A stretch of 64,000 bases of DNA, from contig NZ_JAUSQZ010000001.1 of the NCBI RefSeq assembly GCF_030811555.1, forward strand, positions 4,647,241 through 4,711,240, in the 5' to 3' direction. The first letter of the stretch is position 1. Each line of letters starts with the position of its first letter. Made by a program: the position numbers and the translations under genes. A model generated the notes under the pieces. That model was not told the DNA's origin, did no database searches, and worked only from the letters and a program-made list of their open reading frames with translations. Shown here in pieces: positions 12,577 to 21,093 of this stretch. The DNA comes from Kineosporia succinea. Its GTDB lineage: Bacteria > Actinomycetota > Actinomycetes > Actinomycetales > Kineosporiaceae.

Positions 12577-13067
12577 GCACGAGCACCGCGACCGCAAGGG
12601 TTGCACCGGAATCGGTTCCGTCCGGCCCGAACGCCCGGCCGAACCTCCGGCAACCCGCCCGGCCGCCGCTCCGTGCCGCCCGTCCGCGTCTGCGGGTCGT
12701 GCCCGCGCCCCGGCGGTCCAAGACCGGCCTGGCGGTGCTGTGCGTCGCCCTGCTCGGCGCCGGTCTCCTGGCCCTGCTCCTGCTCAACATCAGCATCGGC
12801 AAGGGTGCCTACGAACTCAGCGACCTGCAGACCCAGCAGCGTGAACTCGCCGAGCAGCGGCAGGCTCTCAGTGAGCAGGTCGAGGCCGAGGGGGCGCCCG
12901 GGCGGCTCGCCGCGAAGGCGAAGAAGCTGGGGATGGTCCCGGCCAAGAACCCGGCCTTCATCGATCCCGAGGACGGCACGGTGAAGGGCGAGCCGGAGGC
13001 GGCCGACGCCCCGGCGCCCGAGGAGACCTCGAAGAAGCCTGCGACGAAGGTCGACTCGTCGCGATGA
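12573..13067 (+). CDS. ftsL: Divisome protein FtsL-like
   Basis: Bitopic membrane protein of 164 residues: a basic Pro/Arg/Ala-rich cytoplasmic tail, one membrane segment (about 52-70, [20 protein letters not shown]), then a coiled coil rich in Gln/Glu/Leu ([16 protein letters not shown]) and an acidic tail. Position between rsmH and ftsI with ATGA overlaps on both sides identifies it as FtsL, which with FtsB and FtsQ activates FtsW-FtsI. FtsL sequences diverge, so identity rests on topology and context. Confidence 0.87.
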
Positions 13068-15520
13068 GCTCGCGTGGTGGTGGCGCCGCCGCCCGGTCGG
13101 GGGCCGGGTACCCGCGGCGCCCCACCACCGGCTCGGAGCCGAAACCAGTCAGGAAGTCCGTGCCCGGTGCGTCCGGCACGTCCGGAACCGTGTCGGGAAG
13201 TGCCAGGAACGCCATGCGTGGGGATGCAGCCCAGGCCCGCCAGCAGCCGGGACGTCAGCCGTCGGGACGCCCGCAGCCGGGCCGTCAGCAACCGGGTCGT
13301 CAGCAGCCCGCCCGTCAGCCGGCGGCGCGCAAGACGGAACCGGCGCGCAAGACGGAACCGGCGCGCAAGACGGAACCGGCGCGCAAGACGGAACCGGCCC
13401 GCAAGACGGAACCGGCCCGCAAGACGGAACCGGCCCGCAGGACCGGGGCGGCCCGCACGGGGGAACCGGCCCGCAAGCCGGCTCCCCGCCGGGGCGCCGG
13501 AAAACCGGTGCCCGGCAACCCGACCCGGACCGGCGCGTCCGCCAAGGCCCGTCAGCTCGCGCCCCGCAACCCTGCTGCCCGCAAGCCGGTCGGCCGTAAA
13601 CCGGTCAGCCGTAAACCCGCGCCCCGCAAGCCGGTCCGCAAGGCCGCCCGCACCCTGACCCGCTCGGCCCTCGGCCCGGCGGTGCGCACCGCGCGCACCC
13701 AGGCGCGACGCCGCCCGGGTGGTCGCGGACCGGGTGGTCCCGGTGGCCCGCGGCGTCCTCTGCTCGGCCCGCCCCGCGCCGGTGAGCCCGACACCCGCCT
13801 GCGCTGGGTGGCCGCGGCCGTGGTGCTGGTCTTCGTGGTGTTCGCCGGAAGACTCGTGCAGCTGCAGGCTTTCGACGCCGACGAGCTCTCGGCCGAGGCC
13901 CTCCAGAACCGCTCCACCACCCGGTCGCTGCCCGCCCACCGCGGTGACATCGTCGACACCAACGGCAGCGTGCTCGCCACCACCATGGAACGCCGCAACA
14001 TCACGGTCGACCAGACCCTGGTGCCCGAGTACCAGGCGAAGGCCAAGGTCCCGGAGGACGAGAAGGGTGTGATCGGCGCGTCGCGGGCCCTGGCCGACGT
14101 GCTCGACCTGCCGGTGAAGGACGTGGCCCAGCGCCTGGCCGGCAACAAGCGCTTCAACTACGTCACGAAGGACGTGGAACCCACCGTCTGGCGTGACGTC
14201 TCGGCCCTCAAGATCCCCGGCATCTTCAGCGAGCAGGCCAGCCGGCGCAACTACCCGGCCGGCACCGTCGCCGCGAACGTGCTCGGCTACATGAACACCG
14301 AGGGCGCCGCGGCCGGCATCGAGAAGTCCCAGGACTCGCTGCTCAGCGGCACCGACGGCACCGTCACCTACGAGCGCGGCAGCGGCGGCCAGCAGATCGC
14401 CACCGGCCTGACCACCCAGACCGACCCGGTCGACGGCAAGGACGTCCAGCTCACCATCGACCGGGACCTGCAGTGGAAGGCCCAGGACGCACTGGCCGCC
14501 ACGGTCAAGGAGTTCGACGCCGCGTCGGCGACCCTGGTGGCGATGAACAAGAAGGGCGAGATCCTGGCCCTGGCCGAGGCGCCCACCTACAACGCCAACA
14601 CACCGAACAAGGCCGATCCCGACAACCTCGGGAACCGGGCCCTGACGCAGGTTTTCGAGCCCGGCTCGACCAGCAAGGTGATCACCGCCGCGGCTGCGAT
14701 CGAGGAGGGCGTGGTGAAGCCCTCCAGCAGGATCACCGTGCCCGGTCTGCTCGACCGCGGTGCCGCCGGGGTGATCCGCGACTCCGAGGCGCACGGCACC
14801 GAGAAGCTCACGTTCGCCGGGGTTCTCGCCAAGTCCTCGAACATCGGCACGGTCAAGGTCGGCGAGAAGATGTCGTCGCAGACCATGTACGACTACCTGA
14901 CCAAGTTCGGCCTGGGCAGCAAGACCGGCGTCGGGCTGGCCGAGTCGGCCGGCATCCTCGGCACCCCCGACGAGTGGGACGGGCGCACCCGGCTCAACGT
15001 CATGTTCGGGCAGGGACTGTCGGTCACCGCGCTGCAGTCGGCCGACGTGTTCGCGACCATCGCCAACGACGGGGTGCGCGTGCAGCCCAAGCTGGTGAAG
15101 GCCGTCACCGGCGCCGACGGCAAGCTCGAGCCGGAGCCCGAGGGCAAGAAGACGCGCGTCGTCAGTGCCCGTACGGCCCGGCAGGTCCGGCTCATGATGG
15201 AGAGCGTGGTCGGCGAGGGGGGCACCGCCTCGAACCTGAAGATCCCCGGCTACCGGATCGCGGGCAAGACCGGAACCGCACAGGCCTACGACGACGAGTG
15301 CGGCTGTTACAGCGGGTACACGGCCAGTTTCGTGGGGATGGCCCCCGCCGACGACCCCGAACTGGTGGTGGCCGTGTTCGTGCAGCAGCCGAAGAAGGCG
15401 CACTACGGCGGCACCGTCGCCGGGCCGGTCTTCCAGCAGATCATGTCCTACGGCCTGACCTCCCTCGGGATCGAGCCGACGGGGACGAAGAAGCCCGACG
15501 TCGCCCTCGAGTGGTCCTGA
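13064..15520 (+). CDS. ftsI: Septal peptidoglycan transpeptidase FtsI (PBP3), with repeat-bearing cytoplasmic tail
   Basis: Class B penicillin-binding protein of 818 residues. The transpeptidase motifs are Ser535-Thr-Ser-Lys538, Ser591-Ser-Asn593 and KTGT from Lys735. One membrane segment lies near residues 247-265, followed by the RGDIVDTNG dimerisation-domain start. The cytoplasmic tail of about 245 residues is unusually long and very basic. It includes six exact copies of the hexapeptide KTEPAR (residues 90-125, bases 13331-13438, 18-base period) and further degenerate copies. No PASTA domain is seen. The enzyme crosslinks septal peptidoglycan with FtsW. The tail is predicted to be disordered; its role is unknown. 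Confidence 0.95.
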   Translation: MSSRGGGAAARSGAGYPRRPTTGSEPKPVRKSVPGASGTSGTVSGSARNAMRGDAAQARQQPGRQPSGRPQPGRQQPGRQQPARQPAARKTEPARKTEPARKTEPARKTEPARKTEPARKTEPARRTGAARTGEPARKPAPRRGAGKPVPGNPTRTGASAKARQLAPRNPAARKPVGRKPVSRKPAPRKPVRKAARTLTRSALGPAVRTARTQARRRPGGRGPGGPGGPRRPLLGPPRAGEPDTRLRWVAAAVVLVFVVFAGRLVQLQAFDADELSAEALQNRSTTRSLPAHRGDIVDTNGSVLATTMERRNITVDQTLVPEYQAKAKVPEDEKGVIGASRALADVLDLPVKDVAQRLAGNKRFNYVTKDVEPTVWRDVSALKIPGIFSEQASRRNYPAGTVAANVLGYMNTEGAAAGIEKSQDSLLSGTDGTVTYERGSGGQQIATGLTTQTDPVDGKDVQLTIDRDLQWKAQDALAATVKEFDAASATLVAMNKKGEILALAEAPTYNANTPNKADPDNLGNRALTQVFEPGSTSKVITAAAAIEEGVVKPSSRITVPGLLDRGAAGVIRDSEAHGTEKLTFAGVLAKSSNIGTVKVGEKMSSQTMYDYLTKFGLGSKTGVGLAESAGILGTPDEWDGRTRLNVMFGQGLSVTALQSADVFATIANDGVRVQPKLVKAVTGADGKLEPEPEGKKTRVVSARTARQVRLMMESVVGEGGTASNLKIPGYRIAGKTGTAQAYDDECGCYSGYTASFVGMAPADDPELVVAVFVQQPKKAHYGGTVAGPVFQQIMSYGLTSLGIEPTGTKKPDVALEWS
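13331..13438 (+). repeat. 18-base in-frame tandem repeat in ftsI
   Basis: Six consecutive 18-base units encode KTEPAR; differences between units are limited to synonymous changes (GCGCGC versus GCCCGC). It lies wholly inside the cytoplasmic tail of FtsI. Being a multiple of three, copy number could change without breaking the frame. Confidence 0.95.
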
Positions 15521-15551: not shown

Positions 15552-17132
15552 GTGCCGGCCCCGTCGCGCGAACCCGCGCCCGCCCGTTCTCTCGCTGATG
15601 TCGCGAGCCTTCTCGGCACCACCGTGCCGGACACCGCGAGTGATGTCGTGATCACTGGTGTCTGCCTCGACTCCCGGGCCGTACGGCCCGGCGATCTGTA
15701 CGCGGCACTGCCCGGAGCACGCACCCACGGCGCGAGATTCGCCGCCGGTGCCGCCGGGCTGGGCGCCGCCGCGGTGCTGACCGACCCCGAGGGGGCGGCG
15801 CTCGCCGCCGACGGCGCGTTACCCCTGGTGATCGTGCCGAACCCGCGTGAGGTGCTCGGCGACCTGGCCGCCTGGGTGTTCGGCCGCCCCGCCGAGAAGA
15901 TGCTGACGTTCGGGGTCACCGGCACCAACGGCAAGACCACCACGACGTTCCTGCTCGACGGCGCGCTGCGCTCGGCCGGGCGGCCGTGCGGCCTGATCGG
16001 CACGGTGATGACGCGGATCCTCGACGAGCAGGTCGACAGCGTGCGCACCACCCCGGAGGCCCCCGACCTGGCCGCGCTGATGGCCACGATGGTGGCGCGG
16101 GGTGTCGAGGTCTGCTCGATGGAGGTCTCCAGCCACGCCATCACCCTCGGCCGGGTCGACGGCATCCGCTTCGACGTGGCCGGGTTCACCAACCTCAGCC
16201 AGGACCACCTCGACTTCCACCCGACCATGGAGCACTACTTCGCGGCCAAGGCCGAGCTGTTCACACCGGCCCGCTCGAAGCAGGCCGTGATCTGCGTGGA
16301 CGACGAGTGGGGCCGCCGTCTGGCCGCCGAGGCCTCGGTCCCGGTGGTGACCTTCACCACGGCGCCCGGGGGCGAGGCCGACTGGTCGGTGTCCGATGCG
16401 CGTCCTCACGACGGCGGCATCGACTTCGTCCTCACCGGGCCCACGGGCGTCCGGCTCGACGCCCGCTGCCCCCTGCCCGCCGACTTCAACGTCGCGAACA
16501 CCGTTCTGGCGCTGCTCATGCTGGTCGCCGCGGGTACCGAGCCGGCCGACGCCGCGCGCTGGCTGGCCTCGGCGCCCGCCGTGCCGGGTCGCATGGAGCT
16601 CATCGCCCGGCGCGGCCCGGGGCAGCCCCTGGCCGTCGTCGACTACGCACACACCCCCGACGCCGTGGCCACCGCGTTGCGCGCCCTGAGGCCCTCGCTC
16701 GGCGCCTCCGGCGGGCCTCTGGTGGTGGTGCTGGGCGCCGGTGGCGACCGCGACCGCGCCAAGCGCCCCAAGATGGGGGCCGAGGCCGCGCGCCACGCCG
16801 ACGTCGTCGTCGTCACCGACGACAACCCACGCTCCGAGTCACCCGCCGACATCCGCGCCTCGGTGCTCGAAGGGGCACGATCGGTGAGGGGCGGTGCCGG
16901 TGAGGTGATCGAGGTCGCCGACCGCCGTGCGGCCATCGAGACCGCCGTCGCCCGGGCCGGGGCGACGGGGATCGTGCTGGTCGCGGGCAAGGGCCACGAA
17001 CGGGGTCAGGAGATCGAGGGGGTCAAGCACCCCTTCGACGACCGCGAGGTGCTGGCCGGCGTGCTCAACCGCACCGAAGGCCCGGCCGGCGGCCCGGCCG
17101 CGGTCCCGGTGGCTCAGGGGCGGAACCGGTGA
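15552..17132 (+). CDS. murE: UDP-MurNAc-tripeptide synthetase MurE (diaminopimelate type)
   Basis: Mur ligase of 526 residues that adds the third amino acid to UDP-MurNAc-L-Ala-D-Glu. It has the ATP loop GVTGTNGKTTTTFLL, the EVSSHA block, NLSQDHLDFH, and an intact AK lysine (YFAAKAEL). DDNPRSESP carries the DNPR signature of the diaminopimelate-adding enzyme rather than the lysine type. The GTG start has no ribosome binding site; a -10 box seven bases upstream suggests a leaderless message. The C-terminus ends normally, so it is not a MurE-MurF fusion. The next gene would normally be murF, which is absent. Confidence 0.95.
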   Translation: MPAPSREPAPARSLADVASLLGTTVPDTASDVVITGVCLDSRAVRPGDLYAALPGARTHGARFAAGAAGLGAAAVLTDPEGAALAADGALPLVIVPNPREVLGDLAAWVFGRPAEKMLTFGVTGTNGKTTTTFLLDGALRSAGRPCGLIGTVMTRILDEQVDSVRTTPEAPDLAALMATMVARGVEVCSMEVSSHAITLGRVDGIRFDVAGFTNLSQDHLDFHPTMEHYFAAKAELFTPARSKQAVICVDDEWGRRLAAEASVPVVTFTTAPGGEADWSVSDARPHDGGIDFVLTGPTGVRLDARCPLPADFNVANTVLALLMLVAAGTEPADAARWLASAPAVPGRMELIARRGPGQPLAVVDYAHTPDAVATALRALRPSLGASGGPLVVVLGAGGDRDRAKRPKMGAEAARHADVVVVTDDNPRSESPADIRASVLEGARSVRGGAGEVIEVADRRAAIETAVARAGATGIVLVAGKGHERGQEIEGVKHPFDDREVLAGVLNRTEGPAGGPAAVPVAQGRNR

Positions 17133-17220
17133 CCCGCAGCCGTCCCGGGGTCGATACGGTGAGCGGCGGCGTGAGCGCTACGGGCCCCGTCAACGGTACG
17201 TACAGGAGACCTTCCGTCTG

Positions 17221-17313
17221 ATGTCCGGCACCCCTTCTGCTTCCCCCGGCCGAACGCCGGCCCCCGCACTTCCCGAACCCCACCTGACGAGAGAGACCGA
17301 GGCAGCGTCGTGA
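17221..17313 (+). CDS. Possible 30-codon ORF coupled to mraY
   Basis: A short frame (ATG 17221) encodes a Pro/Ala/Ser-rich 30-residue peptide. Its stop overlaps the mraY GTG as GTGA, the same coupling seen throughout the cluster. A CAGGAGA stands about a dozen bases upstream of the ATG. It occupies the slot where murF is normally found but has no MurF similarity. It may be a leader peptide or chance; confidence is low. Confidence 0.2.
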
Positions 17314-18395
17314 GAACGGTCCTGATCGCCGCGGCCGTGTCGCTGATCTGCGCACTGTTCGGAACCCCGTGGTTCATCCGGTTCCTGGTCAAGCGCCGCT
17401 ACGGCCAGTTCGTCCGGGACGACGGCCCCACCTCGCACCACGTCAAGCGCGGCACCCCGACCATGGGCGGCGCGGTGATCATCGCGTCCACCCTGATCGG
17501 TTACACGGTGGCGCACGCGGTCACGCTCGACGGCCCGACGATGTCCGGCGTCCTGGTGCTCTACCTGATCGCCGGTCTGGGCCTGGTCGGGTTCCTCGAC
17601 GACTTCATCAAGATCAGCCGCCAGCGCAGTCTGGGCCTGACCGCCGGCGGCAAGCTGGCCGGCCAGTCGTTCGTCTCGATCTCGTTCGCGGTGCTGACCC
17701 TGCAGTTCCCGGACAGCGGGTTCCGCACCCCCGGCACCACGGCCATCTCGTTCATCCGCGACACCGCGGTCGACCTGGCCTTCGCCGGGCCGATCATCGG
17801 CCTGATCCTTTACGTGATCTGGACGTACATCATCATCGCGGGCGCCAGCAACGGCGTGAACCTCACCGACGGGCTCGACGGCCTGGCCACCGGCGCGAGC
17901 GTGATGGTGTTCGGCGGTTACGTGATGATCGGCATCTGGCAGTCCAACCAGTCGTGCCAGCTGGCCTCCGGCGCCGGCCCGCAGTGCTACGAGGTGCGCG
18001 ACCCGCGTGACCTCGCGGTGGTCGCGGCCTGCGTGATGGGCGCGTGCTTCGGCTTCCTGTGGTGGAACGCCTCGCCCGCCAAGATCTTCATGGGTGACAC
18101 CGGTTCGCTGGCGCTCGGCGGTGGCCTGGCCGGCCTCGCCGTCACCACCCGCACCGAGCTGCTGCTCGTCCCGCTGGCCGGCCTGTTCATCATGATCACG
18201 CTGTCGGTCATCATCCAGGTCGGCTCGTTCAAGCTCACCGGTAAACGGGTGTTCCGGATGGCCCCGTTGCAACATCACTTCGAGCTGATGGGCTGGGGTG
18301 AGGTCACGATCGTCATCCGGTTCTGGATCATCGCCGGTCTCTTCGTGGCCCTCGGCCTGGGTGTCTTCTACGCGGAGTGGGTGGTCGGCATATGA
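17310..18395 (+). CDS. mraY: Phospho-MurNAc-pentapeptide-transferase MraY
   Basis: Polytopic membrane enzyme of 361 residues (about ten helices) that makes lipid I from UDP-MurNAc-pentapeptide and undecaprenyl phosphate. Family blocks are visible: FLDDFIKI (catalytic aspartates), [17 protein letters not shown], the [12 protein letters not shown] loop and the APLQHHFE histidine motif. The start is GTG; the stop overlaps the murD-like gene (ATGA). Normally it follows murF; here it follows murE. Confidence 0.96.
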
Positions 18396-19840
18396 GCAAC
18401 CCTCTGGACAACGAGTGGAACGGCCTGCGGGTCGTCGTCGCCGGCATCGGCATCTCGGGTTTCGCCTGCGCGGACGCGTTGCTCGAGCGGGGCGCGCAGG
18501 TGGTCGTGGTGGACGCCGACGGCACCGGTTCCAAGCGGGAGCGCGGCATCGTGCTCGACACCCTGGGCGCCGACATCCGCCTGGGCCCCGAGCACGTGAG
18601 CGCCCTGCCCGAGGTGAACGGGGAGCCGGCCGAGCTGCTGGTCCTGTCGCCCGGCTGGTCCGACGACGAGCCGGTGCTCGTGCAGGCCCTGGCCGCGGGC
18701 ATTCCGGTCTGGGCCGAGGCCGAGCTGGCCTGGCGCCTGCGCCCGGCGAAGAACCCGGCCCCCTGGCTGACCGTCACCGGCACCCGCGGCAAGGCCACCA
18801 CCGCCTCGATGCTCGCCACCGTGCTGAGCGCCGACGGCCGGCGGGCCACCTGCACCGGGCAGGCCGGTACCTCACTCCTGGAATCCGTACTGCACCCGGA
18901 GCCGTACGACGTGCTCGCCGTGCAGCTGTCGGCGTTCCAGCTGCGCTGGAGCTCGAGCCTGTCACCGCTGGCCTCGGTCTGCCTGAACGTGGGCCCGGCC
19001 GACGACAGCGCGGCCGACCGCGGCCGGGTCTACCAGAACACCCAGGTCGCCTGCGTCTACAACGTGGCCGACGAGGGCACCGAGGCGCTGGTGCGCGAGG
19101 CCGACGTGGTCGAGGGCGCCCGGGCCATCGGTTTCACCGGGGGAGTGCCCGCGGTGAGCATGCTCGGCCTGGTCGAAGACGTGCTCTGCGACCGGGCGTT
19201 CGTGCCGCAGCGCAGCACCTCGGCGGCCGAGCTGGGCACGATCGAAGACGTCCGCACGGCCGGGGCCGGGGTGCTGGCCGCCCACAACGTCACCAACGCG
19301 CTGGCCGCGGCCTCCCTGGCCCGCGCCTACGGCGTCGCGGTGACCGCGGTGCGGGACGGCCTGCGCCACTACTACCCGCTCCCGCACCGGCTGAACCTGC
19401 TCGAGAAGCGGGCCGGGGTGGAATGGGTGGACGACTCGGCGGCGACCGACGCGTTCGCGGCGGCGGCCGGGCTGTCCAGTTTCGAGACGCCGGTCTGGAT
19501 CGCGGGTGGCTACGGCACCGCGCCGTCCGACCTGGACGCCGTGGTGGAGAAGTACGCCGGGCGTCTGCGCGGCGTGGTGCTGCTGCCCGGCGACGGCACG
19601 CCCGCGCTGCGGGAGGCCCTGGGCCGACACGCCCCGGATGTCCCGGTCCTCGATGCCGTCGTCCCCGAGACTGAGCCGATGACCGAGACCGTTCTGGCTT
19701 CCGCCGTGGCGCTGGCCGCCGGTCTGGCCCGCCCGGGCGACACCGTGCTGTTCTCCCCGGTGTTCGGAGCGGCCGCGGGAGAACCCTTCTCGGCCCGTGG
19801 GCAGGCCTTCGCACTGGCGCTGAAAGACGTGCCCGCGTGA
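18392..19840 (+). CDS. MurD-like protein with eroded catalytic residues (probable pseudoenzyme)
   Basis: A full-length, uninterrupted frame of 482 residues is clearly homologous to MurD (UDP-MurNAc-L-Ala:D-Glu ligase): [17 protein letters not shown] at the start, an [20 protein letters not shown] block and the [16 protein letters not shown] motif. Comparison with the family motifs as I know them shows losses at the active site. The ATP loop is GTRGKATT instead of GTNGKTTT (residues 130-137). The magnesium Glu is Gln178 (VQLSAFQL for VELSSFQL). The DHLDWH block and about eight residues are deleted, and the carbamylated lysine is Arg210. SKATN is SAATD (349-353), the GGxxKG lysine is gone (372-380), and the C-terminal ASxDxF block is replaced (455-466). 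It probably cannot ligate D-Glu. Overlaps on both sides show it is still co-translated. Confidence 0.85.
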
Positions 19841-21093
19841 CGGTCGCCGACCCGCCCTTCGAGGGTGTCGGCCCCCGGTCGCTGCACCGCGTCACGGCCC
19901 GGCTGAACTCCCCGCTCACCTCGTACTACCTGGTGTTCGGCGCCACCGTGGCGCTGACCTGCATCGGCCTGGTCATGGTGCTGTCCAGCTCCAGCGTCGA
20001 GTCGATCGCCTCGGGCAGCTCGCCGTTCACCGAGTTCTGGCGGCAGGCCATGTTCGCCGCGATCGGTGTGCCCGCGATGTTCGTGGCGATGCGGGTGCCG
20101 GTGCGGATGTGGCAGGTGCTGGGCTGGCCGCTGCTGCTCGCGTCATTCCTGCTGCAGATGCTCACGTTCGTGCCGGGCATCGGTATCGGCACCAACGGCA
20201 ACCGCGGCTGGATCATGATCGCCGGCTTCACCCTGCAGCCCGCCGAGGTCGGCAAGTTCGCGCTGATCGTCTGGGGTGCCACGGTTCTCGTGCGGAAGCG
20301 GCCGCTGATGGACCAGCCGCTGCACGCCCTGATCCCGCTGGTGCCGGGCGCCGGGGTGCTGCTCATGCTGATCCTGGGCGGAAAAGACCTGGGCACCGCG
20401 ATGGTCGTCATGGCGATCATGGCCGGCCTGCTCTTCGTCGCGGGCGCCCCGATGCGCATCTTCGCCTTCGCCTCGGTCGGGCTGCTGCTCGGCATCGTGG
20501 TGATGGCCAGCACCGAGAACCGGCGCGCCCGCATCGGCACCTGGCTGGAGGGCTGCTCGGCGAGCAACCCGAACGTGCTCGACTCGTGCTTCCAGAGTGT
20601 GCACGGCCAGTGGGCGATGGCTTCCGGCGGCTGGTGGGGCGTGGGCCTCGGCGCCAGCCGCGAGAAGTGGGGCCTGCTGCCGGAGGCCCACAACGACTTC
20701 ATCTTCGCCATCGTCGGCGAGGAGCTCGGCCTGGTCGGGACGCTGCTCGTGATCGGCCTGCTGATGACCCTGTGTCTCGGCCTGGCCCGGATCGTGCTGC
20801 GCACCGACGACCTGTTCGTCAAGATCGCTACTTCGGGAGTTCTGATCTGGGTGGTCACCCACTCCGTCATCAACATCGGTGGGGTCGTCGGCCTGCTGCC
20901 GATCGTCGGGATGCCGCTGCCGCTGGTCTCCAGCGGCGGCACGGCGCTCATCACGATGCTCGCGGCCCTCGGCATGGTGCTCGGGTTCGCCCGGCGCGAG
21001 AGCGGTGCGGCCGAGGCGCTGGCCGCCCGGGCCGGGCTGGTGCAGCGTTCGCTGGCCGTTCTCCCGGTGCGTGGGGAGGCCCGTAACCGATGA
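19837..21093 (+). CDS. ftsW: Peptidoglycan glycosyltransferase FtsW
   Basis: SEDS-family polymerase of 418 residues with about ten membrane segments. Conserved blocks include GNRGWIMIAGFTLQPAE with its GKF continuation, PEAHNDFIFAIVGEELG (catalytic Asp region) and GMPLPLVSSGGTALI. It makes septal glycan strands as the partner of FtsI. The GTG start overlaps the upstream stop (GTGA); it also overlaps murG at its end. Confidence 0.95.
   Translation: MTVADPPFEGVGPRSLHRVTARLNSPLTSYYLVFGATVALTCIGLVMVLSSSSVESIASGSSPFTEFWRQAMFAAIGVPAMFVAMRVPVRMWQVLGWPLLLASFLLQMLTFVPGIGIGTNGNRGWIMIAGFTLQPAEVGKFALIVWGATVLVRKRPLMDQPLHALIPLVPGAGVLLMLILGGKDLGTAMVVMAIMAGLLFVAGAPMRIFAFASVGLLLGIVVMASTENRRARIGTWLEGCSASNPNVLDSCFQSVHGQWAMASGGWWGVGLGASREKWGLLPEAHNDFIFAIVGEELGLVGTLLVIGLLMTLCLGLARIVLRTDDLFVKIATSGVLIWVVTHSVINIGGVVGLLPIVGMPLPLVSSGGTALITMLAALGMVLGFARRESGAAEALAARAGLVQRSLAVLPVRGEARNR

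Follow-up and report, generated by a model that had tools for sequence, protein, structure and literature searches.

The murD position of the division and cell wall (dcw) gene cluster of the soil bacterium Kineosporia succinea is occupied by a gene for a 482-amino-acid MurD homologue that has lost its catalytic motifs and is held under purifying selection. It lies at 18392..19840 on the plus strand of the window, the whole stretch of 64,000 nucleotides that was analyzed (positions 4,647,241 to 4,711,240 of contig NZ_JAUSQZ010000001.1), and was delineated by its open reading frame (ORF), by profile matches and by alignment. Judged from sequence comparisons, this dcw MurD is probably a pseudoenzyme kept as a non-catalytic and probably protein-binding component of the machinery for wall synthesis or division.

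The frame runs through its 482 codons without an internal stop. We aligned the dcw MurDs of six Kineosporia genomes with 11 intact dcw-type MurDs, seven from other genera of the Kineosporiaceae (the sister genera) and four from two families designated f22 and f26. These 11 proteins share 138 invariant columns, of which all six Kineosporia proteins retain 94 and all six have lost 30. The latter include N132R, T135A, N157Q, E178Q and N353D, the DHxDWH region (203-205, changed or deleted), K210 (now R, Y or F), K350 (now A or S), L374, K376 and G377 of GGLAKG, and S460, D461 and F463 of the C-terminal loop. On the plus strand of the window, the former P-loop GTNGKTTT reads GTRGKATT (18779..18802; identical in 6/6) and the former Mg-binding Glu is Gln178 (18923..18925; 6/6). 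The altered DHxDWH block and the former site of the carbamylated Lys, here Arg210, follow at 18998..19021; SKATN has become SAATD (19436..19450), GGLAKG has become GGYGTA (19505..19522), and the C-terminal ACASMDxF loop is replaced by 12 other residues (19754..19789). An earlier sequence-only reading of this DNA had described an intact MurD-like frame with active-site motifs altered one after another, and every change that it named is real in the alignment. It was also right that MurC and MurE of the same cluster keep their catalytic motifs (GTHGKTT and GTNGKTT, respectively, together with the Glu and the DHLD region). The ACVYN...DV block, which it took as a match to actinobacterial MurD, is indeed present in the seven sister-genus MurDs and is missing from the four intact f22/f26 proteins. 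An error in motif register was ruled out by the clean alignment of the 11 intact MurDs, and a sequencing artefact is unlikely since six separate assemblies agree.

Database models still place the protein with MurD. Its score against TIGR01087 is 219 bits (cut-off 211.95), so that model-based annotation would continue to name it MurD. In Pfam it matches MurD-like_N, reaches Mur_ligase_C only below the cut-off of that model, and gives no match to the middle domain Mur_ligase_M. With an AlphaFold model of the protein (mean predicted local distance difference test score, pLDDT, of 70; ten sequences in the alignment), the best Foldseek matches were MurD structures (the top 33 among the 50 rows shown); both the homology and the fold of a functional MurD are thus present. 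One could take the passed cut-off and the matching fold as signs of a MurD that still works with an unusual active site. We regard this as barely credible, since the protein lacks the Mg-binding Glu, the carbamylated Lys, the Lys residues of SKATN and GGxxKG and the C-terminal loop, and since the genome offers a replacement pathway and none of the six Kineosporia genomes holds a glutamate racemase MurI over the cut-off. Each of the three sets of features expected of a functional MurD is wanting: the P-loop GTNGK[ST]T, the Mg-binding Glu with DHxD and the carbamylated Lys, and SKATN with GGxxKG and the C-terminal loop.

The distribution of these losses follows the genus boundary. The motifs of the dcw MurD are gone in 6/6 Kineosporia genomes and the gene is intact in 7/7 genomes of other genera of the family; the losses, whose timing the sequence-only reading had proposed to map, are therefore common to Kineosporia and absent from its sister genera. 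All six Kineosporia genomes carry a homologue of the epimerase MurL (85-100% identical) adjoining a second MurD that scores over the cut-off, and MurI is over the cut-off in 0/6. The seven sister-genus genomes have MurI (7/7), no MurL (0/7) and an intact dcw MurD, a pattern without exception in the 13 genomes of the family. In the genome of the window, the best match to the MurI model TIGR00067 reaches 23.4 bits (cut-off 146.65), and the second MurD (C1:2973183-2974466) has intact motifs and stands directly behind the MurL homologue and the PgeF gene; MurL and the second MurD occupy positions 90-1469 and 1462-2820 of L001. This MurL is 84-89% identical to MurL records of Kineosporia mesophila, K. 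rhizophila and K. babensis. The genes pgeF, murL and murD2 overlap head to tail (L236:4970-8503), an arrangement suggestive of a single operon. Four of the six Kineosporia genomes also encode a distant homologue of MurL (L047, G000:C1:5040091-5041077; 26-30% identical).

In the second MurD of Kineosporia, GTKGKST, the Glu, the DH pair and the Lys remain in place. A Leu instead of the SKATN Lys and an Arg in GGxxR are common to this protein and all 22 MurD2 proteins of a class sample of 394 genomes from 138 genera (searched for MurL at E up to 1e-20), and each of these 22 genes lies within about 2 kb of murL. The Arg at the Xanthomonas oryzae Arg358 site is present, and the Glu197 position is Asp in Kineosporia. 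Beyond the class, the residue at the SKATN Lys is Ile, not Leu, in a MurD2 of Pseudoxanthomonas (L095), and GGxxK still has its Lys in two ligases that adjoin distant MurL homologues (L097, L098); the Leu/Arg marks consequently hold at the level of the class and are not universal for MurD2. The Leu and the Arg stand at sites that PMC8788868 connects with the stereochemistry of the Glu (K319 and K348/R358), and the same paper reports in vitro confirmation of the Micromonospora and Salinispora orthologues; the MurD2/MurL pair is also treated in PMC5808125. The second ligase of Kineosporia is thus of the MurD2 type and lies next to the epimerase MurL; by homology, L-Glu, not D-Glu, would be added and then epimerized, which would account for the tolerated loss of the dcw enzyme. 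The sequence-only reading had assigned D-Glu ligation to another gene and suggested a genome search for a second MurD; such a gene with intact motifs does exist, behind murL, although as a MurD2-type enzyme it would by homology add L-Glu. A second canonical MurD fed by MurI was rejected because MurI is not over the cut-off in the genome of the window.

Loss of catalysis has not been followed by decay of the dcw gene. Across the six Kineosporia genomes, its ratio of nonsynonymous to synonymous substitutions (dN/dS) is 0.30 (Nei-Gojobori, 15 pairs), an absolute value that the strong GC bias renders rough, and mean amino-acid identity is 0.83. The corresponding dN/dS values are 0.29 for FtsW, 0.25 for MurE, 0.24 for MurG, 0.22 for MurC, 0.10 for MraY, 0.19 for FtsZ, 0.44 for FtsQ, 0.19 for MurD2 and 0.26 for MurL. 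Purifying selection hence acts on the dead MurD at about the level seen for FtsW and MurE, as the sequence-only reading, which expected a protein kept under selection and asked for this estimate, had anticipated. Loss of catalytic residues and purifying selection, the two marks of a pseudoenzyme, occur together in this protein.

The gene might instead be a remnant that persists passively, a frame that is open in GC-rich DNA and is either decaying or kept only for translational coupling between mraY and ftsW. Such coupling would suit the position of the gene, which overlaps mraY (17310..18395, plus strand) by 4 nt at its start and ftsW (19837..21093, plus strand) by 4 nt at its stop, the start codons being those of the ORF list. 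It would also suit the finding that 13/22 other MurL-bearing genomes of the class show no dcw murD. Yet coupling alone would not constrain the protein sequence, and at the amino-acid level the protein is about as constrained as FtsW and MurE. When single lineages were simulated under neutrality, the frame stayed open in 7 to 54 of 200, depending on settings; retention in all six lineages at once by neutrality is unlikely, a rough estimate that treats the lineages as independent and ignores insertions and deletions. The dN/dS value and the simulation led us to reject a chance open frame, and we consider the remnant explanation as a whole improbable.

In ten-genome trees, the Kineosporia MurD stem is 1.49 times the mean sister-to-sister distance, with values of 0.19-0.62 for MurG, MurC, FtsW, MurE, MraY and FtsZ. 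The motif losses precede the split of the six Kineosporia species, and the present constraint is ordinary. Neofunctionalization toward another substrate would also fit a protein that first lost its old active site and then came under constraint, and several replacement residues are fixed in 6/6 genomes. However, the former K210 and K350 sites differ among the six, and no new conserved catalytic cluster was noticed, although no systematic search for one was made; we judge a new catalytic activity very improbable.

A second case came from the survey of the class sample, in which MurL was found in 23/394 genomes (that of the window included) and 13/138 genera. The other 22 MurL-bearing genomes differ in what became of the dcw murD. 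Four carry it intact beside MurL/MurD2 (G110, G152, G068, G351). Three, all from one genus of family f35 (G104, G392, G168), encode only the N-terminal and central domains, and in G210 and G336 nothing but a C-terminal piece is left. Family f26 contributes two genomes of genus g41 (G184, G029; L215, L219) in which murL-murD2 sits between mraY and ftsW in place of murD, and in eight genomes the mraY-ftsW interval is without murD. The stretches taken from G272, G312 and G328 showed neither ftsW nor a convincing dcw-type MurD (G328 gave one 19.9-bit match with a stop). MurI passes the cut-off in 4/22 (G110, G152, G336, G068) and narrowly misses it in G351; G210 gave a partial 55.6-bit match. In G336, which has MurI over the cut-off, only the C-terminal MurD remnant accompanies MurD2 (L223), an observation at odds with a simple story of replacement, as is the presence of an intact MurD together with MurL/MurD2 in the four genomes named above.

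The three f35 proteins (338, 346 and 318 amino acids) lie between mraY and ftsW and end just past the central domain in 3/3 cases; missing from all three are the P-loop Lys, the Mg-binding Glu and the serine of GxGxSG. In the MraY tree, f35 falls outside the Kineosporiaceae, and a clade of Kineosporia plus f35 is rejected by the approximately unbiased test (p-AU 0.01). For this reason, and since the sister genera are intact, a single shared loss was rejected, and catalysis has most likely been lost twice with the protein retained. In the MurL tree, the f35 MurLs do not form one clade (p-AU 1e-41), and a grouping of Kineosporia with G392 and G104 is rejected (p-AU 5e-55), that with G168 less strongly (0.011); the groupings in these MurL and MraY tests were picked after the tree was viewed, and long branches are present. 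Separate origins of the MurLs of Kineosporia and f35 do not follow from the MurL test, given that those of f35 fall into more than one clade. The f35 genomes (L221, L224, L225) combine a shared truncated dead MurD with split MurLs, a pattern that exchange or repeated gain of murL could explain.

What the two dead lineages have kept is most evident in a block of the central domain, residues 215-292 (19034..19267, plus strand), the segment most like sister-genus MurDs in both and our proposed interaction surface. Identity between Kineosporia and the sister genera is 0.55 in the N domain, 0.60 in the catalytic stretch, 0.72 in the block, 0.69 in the end of the central domain and 0.46 in the C domain. 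The truncated f35 proteins show 0.53, 0.43, 0.61 and 0.59 for the first four of these segments. In contrast, the intact f22/f26 enzymes show 0.55, 0.61, 0.31, 0.55 and, for the C domain, 0.63 against the same sisters. With N-domain distances almost the same, the block is retained and the catalytic stretch lost in the dead proteins, while the opposite holds for the working f22/f26 enzymes, although phylogeny confounds part of this segment comparison. Among themselves, the intact sisters are 0.81 identical in the block and 0.82 in the catalytic stretch; the block is as conserved there as the catalytic stretch, and its constraint is therefore not new. MurD2 is shorter in this region.

A different use of the fold would be that of a sensor, in which the dead protein binds a nucleotide or the UDP-MurNAc precursor and allosterically regulates MraY, MurG or MurD2. 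The Kineosporia proteins retain the P-loop Lys134 and T136/T137 in 6/6, which may still permit Mg-free nucleotide binding; the altered P-loop is invariant among them, and the N-terminal GxGxSG and SPG are likewise kept in 6/6. However, N157 and H204, which we take to be equivalent to precursor and metal contacts of Escherichia coli MurD, are lost. Moreover, the three f35 proteins lack the P-loop Lys and the GxGxSG serine, so that ligand binding is not what the two dead lineages share. This weakens a sensor role, which we consider unlikely, though the least so among the alternatives to a structural one.

The explanation that we favor is that the ancestral dcw murD of Kineosporia became a pseudoenzyme in the wake of a change in pathway. 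As the simplest account of the gene content, a Kineosporia ancestor would have gained MurL and a MurD2-type ligase and lost MurI; by homology to the characterized pair, UDP-MurNAc-L-Ala would then receive L-Glu, which MurL would convert to D-Glu. Freed from catalysis, the dcw MurD shed its motifs before the six species parted, and purifying selection has since held it near the level of FtsW and MurE. The selected trait may be a non-catalytic job that MurD already had and that MurD2 does not do, namely that of a folded partner or scaffold in a cytoplasmic Mur/divisome assembly. Candidate partners are FtsW, MurG and proteins of the FtsZ/SepF/DivIVA type, and the contact would most likely be made through block 215-292. 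The literature lends indirect support, PMC6420597 citing an association of MurG with the Thermotoga ligases MurD, MurE and MurF. Of the scaffold or regulator suggested by the sequence-only reading, the scaffold may well apply; that idea gains because a second dead MurD exists in another family and because the conserved block lies away from the catalytic motifs. Beyond Kineosporia, we would propose only tentatively that MurD of these actinobacteria has a second, selectable structural job in the cytoplasmic complex for wall synthesis and division, seated in the block, and that take-over by MurD2/MurL removed catalysis and thereby exposed this job twice, with the C-terminal ligase domain given up entirely in one of the two lineages.

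Several observations weigh against this account. The MurL homologue scores 337 bits against the curated model NF041275 (cut-off 700), a model by its name built for Xanthomonadales whose cut-off is reached in 0/394 class genomes. The absence of a D-Glu supplier from the six Kineosporia genomes refers to glutamate racemase, D-amino-acid aminotransferase not having been searched for. The stem-to-crown ratio of MurD (4.47) is inside the range of the other genes (1.23-6.85), and on this measure a burst on the genus stem is not evident. Within Kineosporia the ratio of nonsynonymous to synonymous polymorphism (pN/pS) of the block is 0.33, and the lowest value, 0.20, belongs to the end of the central domain, which is nearly as close to the sisters as the block. 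The block is also the region of lowest AlphaFold confidence, with pLDDT under 50 for residues 238-295. The f35 proteins evolve faster (pairwise dN/dS 0.34-0.48). Finally, the 13 MurL-bearing genomes that lack a dcw murD by these searches, next to the two that keep only a C-terminal piece, imply that the role, if general, is dispensable elsewhere.

Elsewhere in the cluster, murF is not found between murE and mraY of the window (17132-17310). Three MurF homologues over the cut-off are encoded elsewhere in the genome, one of them near a D-Ala-D-Ala ligase gene (L235). Among the sister genomes, G011, G001 and G002 include murF in their clusters, and the murE-mraY interval of G004 showed none. In its N-terminal part, the FtsI frame has an extended stretch of low complexity in which ARKTEP units recur (13064-13700).

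Compared with canonical MurD, the Kineosporia protein has the same place between mraY and ftsW, a like length and fold and most of the invariant columns (94/138); it differs in the loss of the catalytic and metal motifs, and MurI, the usual supplier of D-Glu, is not over the cut-off in the six genomes. Pseudoenzymes such as pseudokinases show the same combination of dead active site, conserved fold and purifying selection. Whether Mur ligases play a structural part besides catalysis has been debated on the basis of binding and protein-complementation data. In Kineosporia, evolution has pulled the two roles apart, the catalytic motifs being gone and the protein kept, and the dead MurD represents a natural separation-of-function form with which binding partners could be looked for while precursor synthesis stays intact. 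There is also a caution for annotation: a genome with MurD2/MurL may hold a second "murD" that passes the annotation cut-off without a working active site. Among the matches listed from the open-licence literature, there was no MurD or other Mur ligase pseudoenzyme and nothing on Kineosporia and peptidoglycan. With the MurD2/MurL pathway of X. oryzae, Micromonospora and Salinispora, as described in the consulted part of PMC8788868, Kineosporia shares adjacent murL-murD2 genes, the lack of MurI and the Arg at the K348 site; the equivalent of Asp182 is Asp in Kineosporia and Glu in X. oryzae MurD2. Kineosporia differs in retaining the displaced dcw MurD as a pseudoenzyme, which that part of the paper does not mention. 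The replacement pathway is thus already known, while the retained and constrained MurD pseudoenzyme, with its truncated f35 counterpart, is new as far as we have searched.
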